A stretch of 64,000 nt of DNA from Aliivibrio wodanis (lineage in GTDB: Bacteria; Pseudomonadota; Gammaproteobacteria; Enterobacterales; Vibrionaceae): the NCBI GenBank assembly GCA_000953695.1, contig LN554846.1:434001-498000 (forward strand). The letters are read 5' to 3'. This document shows, in pieces, positions 15,724 through 18,732 of this stretch (positions within the stretch are counted from its first letter, which is position 1; each line of letters opens with the position of its first letter). The position numbers were made by a program, and so were the translations under genes. A model generated the notes under the pieces. It worked only from the letters and a program-made list of their open reading frames with translations, ran no database searches and was not told the DNA's origin.

Positions 15724-16674
15724 ATGTCTGAACAATTTCAACACGTATCTGTCCTTCTTCATGAATCTATTGATGGCTTGGCGATTAAACCTGATGGTAT
15801 CTATATTGACGGTACTTTTGGTCGTGGTGGTCACAGTCGCCAAATTTTATCTCGATTAGGTGAACATGGACGTTTGTATAGTATAGACCGTGATCCTCAA
15901 GCAATTGCAGAAGCAAAAACCATTACAGATCCTAATTTTACTATTATTCATGGTCCATTTTCAGGCTTGAAACAATATGTTGAAGAGCTTGATTTAGTCG
16001 GTAAAATTGATGGAATATTACTTGATTTAGGTGTGTCATCCCCACAGCTCGATGATGCAGACCGTGGTTTTAGTTTTATGAAAGATGGTCCTTTAGATAT
16101 GCGTATGGACCCAACCTCTGGAATGCCTGTTTCTCAGTGGTTATTAGATGCTGATGTAGAAGATATTACTTGGGTTATTCGTGAATTTGGCGAAGACAAG
16201 CACGCGTGGCGTATTGCAAAAGGTATTGTTGCTTATCGTGAAAATGAAGAAAATGAGCCATTAACACGTACAAGCCAGTTAGCTAAATTAATTTCGGACG
16301 TTGCTCCTAAGAACTATAAAGAAAAGAAGCACCCAGCGACTCGTACTTTCCAAGCATTTCGAATTTATATCAACAGTGAATTAGATGAAATTGATACAGC
16401 ACTAAAAGGGGCATTAGATGTATTAGCACCTGAAGGTCGATTGTCGGTAATCAGTTTTCATTCATTAGAAGACCGCATGGTTAAGCACTTTATTCGTAAA
16501 GAAAGTAGAGGCCCACAAGTGCCTCATGGCTTGCCATTAACGGAAGACCAAATCAAAGCATTAGGTAGTGCAAAAATGAAGCCTATTGGTAAAGCAATTA
16601 AGCCTACCGTTAATGAAGTTGATGTAAATGTTCGTTCACGTAGTTCTGTTTTACGTATCGCTGAGCGCTTATGA
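15724..16674 (+). CDS. rsmH: 16S rRNA m4C1402 N4-methyltransferase RsmH (MraW)
   Basis: RsmH adds the N4-methyl group on C1402 of 16S rRNA, the same base whose ribose RsmI (just upstream in this window) methylates. The SAM-binding loop is [10 protein letters not shown] near residue 29, with [12 protein letters not shown] near 100. The 316 residues match E. coli (313). It is the first gene of the dcw cluster here and overlaps ftsL by 4 nt. Confidence 0.97.
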
Positions 16675-16997
16675 GTCAAAATTCCCTTTCATCGTCTAAT
16701 TTAACAAAAATGATTGGCCTAGACCTTTTTGGTGTAGGTCGTCTTCACGCTATTTTATTATTTATTATATTTGTCAGTGCAATAAGTGTCGTATTGGCAA
16801 CACATAATACCCGCCAAATGACGGTTAAACGTGAAAACCTATTGCTTGAAAAAGATATATTAGATGGTGAATGGCGTAACTTAATTTTAGAAGAGAGTGC
16901 GTTAGCAGAGCATAGCCGAGTTCAATTACGCTCTGTGCAAGAGCTCGATATGGAACGTCCCGCACCAGATAAAGAAGTTATAATAAAACTACAATGA
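16671..16997 (+). CDS. ftsL: Cell division protein FtsL
   Basis: FtsL is a small bitopic protein forming the FtsQLB complex that activates septal synthesis. The 108 residues show a short cytoplasmic N-terminus, one membrane helix (~28-46, A-I-L-L-F-I-I-F-V) and a periplasmic leucine-zipper coiled coil. The start overlaps rsmH (ATGA), and its own stop overlaps the ftsI ATG at 16994 in the same way. Confidence 0.94.
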
Positions 16998-18732
16998 AAT
17001 TACCAAATAGAAAAAAAATAATAAACGAATTACCAAAGCGCCGCCGACTCTCATTCCGTGGCGCTTTGGCGTTATTGTTTTCTTCATTTTTCTAGCGTTA
17101 GCGATCTTAATTGCACGAGCTGCTTATATTCAAGTGATTGAACCTGACAACCTTATTAAGCAAGGTGATATGCGTTCTATTCGAGTTAAAGCTCTGCCTT
17201 CAGCTCGTGGGATCATCTCTGATCGTAATGATGAACAATTAGCGGTAAGTGTCCCTGTTGATGCGGTTTGGGCTGATCCTGTCACTATCTATAAAGAGGG
17301 GGGATTAGTTGAGGTTGAGCGTTGGCATGCTTTGGCTGATGTTTTAGGCTTAAAGCGAAAGGAAATGCTGTCTAAAATTGAGAAAAATAAGAAACGTCGT
17401 TTTATTTATCTTCAGCGCCAAATATCCCCTGCGGTAGCCGCTTATATTAAAAAATTAAAACTTGCTGGTATTGGACTAAAAGCTGAGTCTCGTCGCTACT
17501 ACCCTAGTGGTGAAATCAGTGCGCATGTTATTGGTGTAACAGGAATCGACAGCCGTGGTTTAGAAGGCATAGAGAGCAGTTATGATGGTTGGCTAACTGG
17601 CGAACCAGGTCGACGAACTGTTCGAAAAGATCGTTATGGTCGAGTAGTAGAAAATATTTCACTTAAAGAAAAGCAAGAAGGTAAACCTTTAGTTTTAAGT
17701 ATTGATCAGCGTTTACAAGCCATTGCTTATCGTGCAATCAAACAAGCGGTCGCTGATTATCGTGCGATGTCAGGGTCGGTTGTGATGATTGATATCAAAA
17801 CCGGTGAAGTACTTGCGATGGTGAATGCACCATCATACAACCCAAACAATCGTCAACAATTGCAAAGTTTTAGAATGCGTAACCGAGTTATTACTGACAC
17901 ATTAGAGCCTGGTTCTACCGTAAAACCTTTTGTGGTCCTTGCCGCTCTAGATGGTGGAACAGCAACACTAGATACGGTAGTAGATACTGGGAATGGTATT
18001 ATGCGTATTGGTGGCAGTCGGGTTCGCGATAGTTCAAAAGTAGGTAAAGCGGATTTAACCACCATATTAAAGAAATCCAGTAATATTGGTGTAGCAACGT
18101 TAGCACTAGGGATGCCTCTTCAAGAATTATTGGGAGAATATAGTGCAGTTGGTCTTGCTGATCCTTCTGGATTGAACTTGATTGGTGAAGCTACAGGGAT
18201 CTTCCCTGATCGCCGCCGCTGGTCTGATTTTGAAATAGCTACACTGGCTTTTGGCTATGGCTTATCTGTGACCCCAATTCAATTAGCACACGCCTATGCA
18301 ACATTGGGTGCTTATGGTGAGTATCGTCCGTTGTCAATTTTGAAAACAACAGGTTTAACACCAGGCAAGCAAGTGGTGAATCGTCAATATGCTAAAGCTG
18401 TATTAGAAATGATGGAAACCGTAACTCAACCTGGTGGTACAGCCACTAAAGCGGCAGTTCCTGGATATCGAGTTGCAGCAAAGACGGGAACTTCGCGTAA
18501 AGCAGTTCGTGGTGGTTACAGCGATGAATACATGACCGTTACCGCGGGAGTCGCACCAGTAAGTAATCCACGAATAGCATTGGTGACTATCGTCAACCAA
18601 CCACAAGGCGATGAATATTACGCAGGACAAGTTGCTGCGCCTATTTTTGGTCAGGTAATGAAAGATGCGCTGCAAATACTGAACGTAGCGCCGGACGAAA
18701 GTACCGTAAAACATATTGATGTATTGAATTAG
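16994..18732 (+). CDS. ftsI: Septal peptidoglycan transpeptidase FtsI (PBP3), reading frame broken near the start
   Basis: FtsI crosslinks septal peptidoglycan and is essential. The expected ATG at 16994 overlaps the ftsL stop and has a fitting start (M-K-L-P-N-R-K-K), but this frame ends at a TAG at 17093-17095 after 33 codons. The body, including the membrane segment [14 protein letters not shown], is in the -1 frame, which has a TAG at 17008-17010 and no ATG/GTG/TTG before GTG 17134, beyond the membrane helix. A run of eight A residues (17011-17018) holds the slippery heptamer A-AAA-AAA. A -1 shift there gives 579 residues with S308-T-V-K, S362-S-N and K497-T-G, within three residues of the E. 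coli positions. Either ribosome or RNA polymerase slippage, a real indel, or a sequencing error explains it. Confidence 0.93.

Follow-up and report, generated by a model that had tools for sequence, protein, structure and literature searches.

We examined a stretch of 64,000 nucleotides of the Aliivibrio wodanis genome (contig LN554846.1, positions 434,001 to 498,000; hereafter the window) in which the cell-division gene ftsI is deposited in two pieces that lie in different reading frames. The break falls at a run of eight A's shortly after the start codon. Judging from the comparison with other genomes of the genus and from the history of the assembly, this run is most probably a run-length error, a 454 undercall, in the reference assembly, and the DNA of the sequenced strain would then carry the form of the run that is usual in the genus. 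The genome that holds the window has 4,635,126 bases, 3,003,353 of them in the first contig, with a G+C content of 38.5%; the bacterium is associated with fish and grows in culture. The features of the locus, all on the forward strand (+), are the following.

16671 to 16997, +: ftsL, intact (TIGR02209 above its cut-off; NF008040 at 95.8 bits, cut-off 96; PF04999 with an E-value of 3e-33).
16994 to 17095, +: zero-frame start of ftsI, 33 codons, no family match.
17008 to 17010, +: TAG that closes the body frame on its upstream side, from reading the sequence.
17011 to 17018, +: the run of eight A's (A8), which is A9 in 11 of the 13 other genus genomes and interrupted in two.
17019 to 17133, +: body-frame stretch for the FtsI membrane helix and the N-terminal tail before it, with no ATG, GTG or TTG, assigned from third-position differences.
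17033 to 17069, +: conserved hairpin (arms 17033-17047 and 17055-17069), from folding and conservation.
17134 to 18732, +: body of ftsI, with the dimerisation domain of penicillin-binding proteins (PBP) and the transpeptidase domain, open throughout, from family matches.

The ftsL gene ends in CAATGA, and its TGA overlaps the ATG of ftsI at 16994. Over codons 1-8 the residues encoded in the frame of this ATG agree with those of the relatives that have nine A's; the later codons are out of frame, and the frame closes at the TAG at 17093-17095. The body of FtsI lies in the -1 frame relative to ATG 16994. The first standard start in that frame is GTG 17134, with no ATG, GTG or TTG before it, and the open reading frame (ORF) listed from there to 18732 has 532 amino acids. 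The deposited sequence thus offers no continuous frame from the start codon through the membrane helix into the body, as is found in 12 of the 13 other genus genomes; the exception, G004, is broken later in the gene. Within the run, the heptamer A-AAA-AAA at 17011-17017 sits in the phase of the zero frame, which is the arrangement of a slippery heptamer. This layout, with the two stops, the overlap with ftsL, the missing start before 17134, the phase of the heptamer and a catalytic serine at position 308, had been set out in a preliminary description of the window, and every one of these points was verified.

The body itself has what is expected of FtsI. It matches the Pfam Transpeptidase and PBP_dimer domains and carries the SxxK, SxN and KTG motifs as STVK at 308, SSN at 362 and KTGT at 497, numbered with 47 residues placed before GTG 17134. 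The NCBIfam model NF011685 is matched from profile position 47 with an E-value of 9.8e-199 and 661.7 bits; the score stays under the cut-off of 737 probably because the N-terminus is missing. The body protein is 94-96% identical to those of the genus relatives, and a one-base break within so well-kept a gene is no chance pattern. Gene decay was rejected on the same grounds, the body being open and this close to the rest of the genus. A second copy of ftsI was likewise rejected: at a threshold of E 0.001, the sole other FtsI match in the genome is an ORF of 662 amino acids that is 30% identical and looks like a PBP2 by its size and its neighbour.

The comparison at the run covered all 14 genus genomes of our set, that is, the window genome and 13 others. 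Eleven of the 13 have nine A's, and in the other two (G005 and G008) the run is interrupted. Each of the 13 keeps its frame across this site, and not one of them needs a shift here. A more distant Aliivibrio metagenome-assembled genome (L040) has eight A's in another codon layout, and it too is in frame. The preliminary description had held that an A9 tract in all related strains would mark the run as a sequencing error, and the counts above go much of the way towards that. As for the stretch between the run and GTG 17134, positions 17020-17133 differ from those of 10 relatives at 138 places, of which 106 are third, 21 first and 11 second positions of the body frame, with two to three amino-acid differences from each relative. 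As the relatives share history, this tally describes the pattern and does not serve as a test. It suggests that, at least until very recently, the membrane-helix stretch has been read as part of FtsI.

If the run is an error of the record, a run of nine A's, the usual form in the genus, would have been entered as eight, and the undercalled run would make an ordinary ftsI look split; in the cell, FtsI would be translated straight through from ATG 16994. The assembly of A. wodanis 06/09/139 is described as a 454 Newbler scaffold for Illumina data through IMAGE, with Pacific Biosciences (PacBio) data in addition, and the same paper gives ERP006698 as the deposit of RNA reads of this strain and PRJEB6963/PRJEB6964 as the genome accessions (PMC4462113). 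Homopolymer errors of 454 sequencing are reported to favour A/T and to become more frequent with longer runs (PMC3277595). The ftsI locus resembles the frameshifts described in that report in having, within a 454-based assembly, a long A/T run that lacks one base relative to most related genomes, in a conserved gene that is otherwise intact; it differs in that the assembly drew on Illumina and PacBio data as well and in that few other breaks are seen. Counting exact A/T runs across the 14 genomes, we found the ratio of nine-base to eight-base runs to be 30:449, or 0.067, in the window genome, the lowest of all (0.091-0.149 in the others). The shortage is moderate: the binomial P is 0.0015 when the mean of the others is taken as reference, 0.017 when five relatives with at most eight contigs are pooled, and 0.055 at the minimum of the others. 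The ratio of eight-base to seven-base runs, at 0.236, is third lowest and within the range of the others (0.206-0.269), and ten-base runs are uninformative, being absent from the window genome and from five of the 13 others. Of the three causes put forward in the preliminary description, homopolymer error is the best supported, by the 454-based assembly and this moderate shortage. The third-position bias ahead of GTG 17134, the failure to find a second FtsI, the split ftsI of the G004 assembly and the breaks reported in core genes of public genomes (both described below) count in its favour as well.

Several observations weigh against an undercall, however. The low count of nine-base runs may be a trait of the species. 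Of the 30 such runs in this genome, 12 fall within mechanically called ORFs of 100 or more amino acids, and the assembly therefore often counts nine correctly; that Illumina and PacBio data went into it is a further point against an undercall. Two limited surveys, moreover, showed no excess of similar breaks. No other true frame break was found in it among 225 matched ORFs of G002 over 400 kb, in a survey that cannot see a break within about the first eight codons and that passed over ftsI. This survey returned one frame-break pair and six other-frame matches on the window genome, the pair being among the six; in the pair it was the G002 gene that proved to be broken, and leader or upstream extensions accounted for the remaining five. 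A further 400 kb of comparison lacked collinearity, and the number of matches stayed at 225. In a second survey, none of the 76 runs of at least eight bases in 800 kb (152 over both strands) had the signature of a split ORF; here 60 open codons are required upstream, so the survey is blind near start codons, and ftsI again went unflagged.

Some observations made along the way concern other genes and genomes. In G002 (L130-L149, G002:C1:2340001-2740000), up to four ORFs are frame-broken that are open in A. wodanis. Two ORFs of the window genome, of 451 and 449 amino acids and open as deposited, each have a nine-base A/T run close to the called start, 10 bases past it in one and 54 in the other (L201 and L207, G000:C1 near 1753500 and 2473807), and are candidates for checking of run length or slippage. 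For ftsI itself, 121 Vibrionaceae genomes were searched with the body sequence as a baseline, a search in which breaks near the start are not visible. In G004, another assembly of the genus, ftsI is split in the middle of the body (L015/L016), which is probably an assembly error. A match with one internal TGA was found in G052 (G052:C21:11401-12954), and one with two internal TAA in G014, a Vibrionaceae genome of 2.6 Mb (G014:C1:397032-398624). Breaks in core genes, groEL and rpoB among them, are reported from public genomes, with many of them suspected to be sequence errors (PMC6403173).

The main rival to the undercall is that the eight A's are real. There would have been a recent one-base loss from a slippage-prone run of nine, and FtsI would be made through slippage of RNA polymerase that adds an A, through -1 slippage of the ribosome on A-AAA-AAA, or through both, perhaps with the aid of the hairpin. 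We regard this as unlikely, although it is the one alternative with appreciable weight. The heptamer is in the proper phase, and a -1 slip there yields the residues of the relatives; the hairpin downstream of the run is strong (-28.1 kcal/mol for a stretch of 80 nt, with a z of -5.4 when dinucleotides are shuffled); and the two limited surveys described above found no other frame break in the assembly. The main part of the stem, however, starts 15 nt past the heptamer, with a weaker lower stem closer to it, and inspection by eye showed nothing like a Shine-Dalgarno stimulator. FtsI is essential in Escherichia coli, and because of this a large drop in its level should be costly, which counts against a rescue by slippage.

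Published cases point in both directions. Frame-breaking indels in an A8 repeat were highly tolerated in one report (PMC3812077), and the A8 run of human apoB still gives about a tenth of full-length product (PMC1088944). For frameshifted genes of endosymbionts, a review cites 12-50% corrected transcripts (PMC5009743). These genes are like ftsI of A. wodanis in that a cell-wall gene has its frame broken at a poly(A) run; they differ in having long runs and an A+T content above 70%, whereas ours is a culturable bacterium with 38.5% G+C and a run of only eight A's. Transcriptional frameshifting in tssM1 of Citrobacter rodentium, which reaches 20-25% at A11, also involves a poly(A) run ahead of a premature stop (PMC4256274). 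There, however, the run is longer, two products are useful, the rate was obtained by experiment, and the gene serves secretion rather than an essential step of division. On the other side, slippage of E. coli RNA polymerase was undetectable on fewer than eight A's and amounted to 5% on T7 and 10% on T8, with no figure for A8 in the text available (PMC6260861), and the available text of a study of Buchnera reports no restored frame detected (PMC5574713). Selection against A/T runs is visible from nine bases in many genomes (PMC1088944). Given these data on slippage and on the selection of runs, a rescued deletion is possible but probably costly. One may even imagine a culturable bacterium that makes its only FtsI from a truly broken A8 gene, with the slippage of polymerase and ribosome combined and aided by a pre-existing hairpin, so that slippage sets the level of the septal enzyme and the loss persists as an allele that is tolerated or slows growth; we consider this version improbable.

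Programmed -1 frameshifting of the dnaX type uses a slippery run of lysine codons and a downstream hairpin, as are present at the ftsI site, and the preliminary description had offered a switch that sets the level of FtsI relative to that of FtsL. A slippery heptamer and a conserved hairpin shortly past the start codon are indeed there. The spacer, however, is longer than in dnaX, the upstream Shine-Dalgarno-like element is missing by eye, and the sister species do without the shift, the run being broken altogether in two of them; the hairpin is found in many Photobacterium ftsI genes that have no A run, and is thus not tied to frameshifting. This part of the earlier proposal is not supported, and we hold such an evolved switch to be extremely improbable. 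We give equally little credence to initiation within the body frame, at GTG 17134 or at a rare start, which would make the break harmless. GTG 17134 is the earliest standard start in that frame, but a product begun there would be without the membrane helix, and the stretch it skips has the pattern of third-position differences and few amino-acid changes described above. With the relatives in frame and most of the differences at third positions, neither a conserved programmed shift nor an internal start has support.

The hairpin is conserved in ftsI across the genus. With shuffles of synonymous codons, z is -2 or lower in 13 of the 14 Aliivibrio rows, G002 being at -1.7; outside the genus, several Photobacterium rows reach -2 to -3, many others are nearer zero, and Vibrio is mostly unremarkable. 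The hairpin stretch had the lowest z of 50 windows along the gene in the window ftsI, L039 and L061, and the second lowest in G005, the four genes that were scanned. Synonymous variation is also least here: among 559 windows of twenty codons, the 12 with the lowest values all begin at codons 1-16, in a scan of 12 rows that left out L040, L041 and the window. The stem is common to many Photobacterium sequences, and inspection of 33 sequences by eye showed no compensatory changes of paired bases. The support for the hairpin therefore comes from conservation and energy and not from covariation, and since genes that can do without a frameshift have it too, it is no evidence for programmed shifting. 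It may have a role in the translation of ftsI or in the handling of its mRNA, which is a guess. Two known kinds of element were tried and rejected: four matches to RNA families fell short of the gathering score, and of two terminator-like matches in 800 bases (0.6 expected) one, at 17058-17075, lies in the hairpin region and is a consensus match only.

A search of one literature library found nothing on ftsI in A. wodanis, nothing on frameshifting or slippage in ftsI as judged by the listings and the beginnings of abstracts, and, among the matches listed and by title, no mRNA hairpin of this kind in ftsI. The genome paper of A. salmonicida mentions homopolymer frameshifts, with no mention of ftsI in the text examined (PMC2627896). 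If the run of eight A's is an error, the reference record of A. wodanis wrongly shows an essential gene as split, and it would mislead surveys of essential genes, of pseudogenes and of beta-lactam targets. If it is real, ftsI of A. wodanis would be a rare case, outside the endosymbionts, of an essential division enzyme that depends on slippage.
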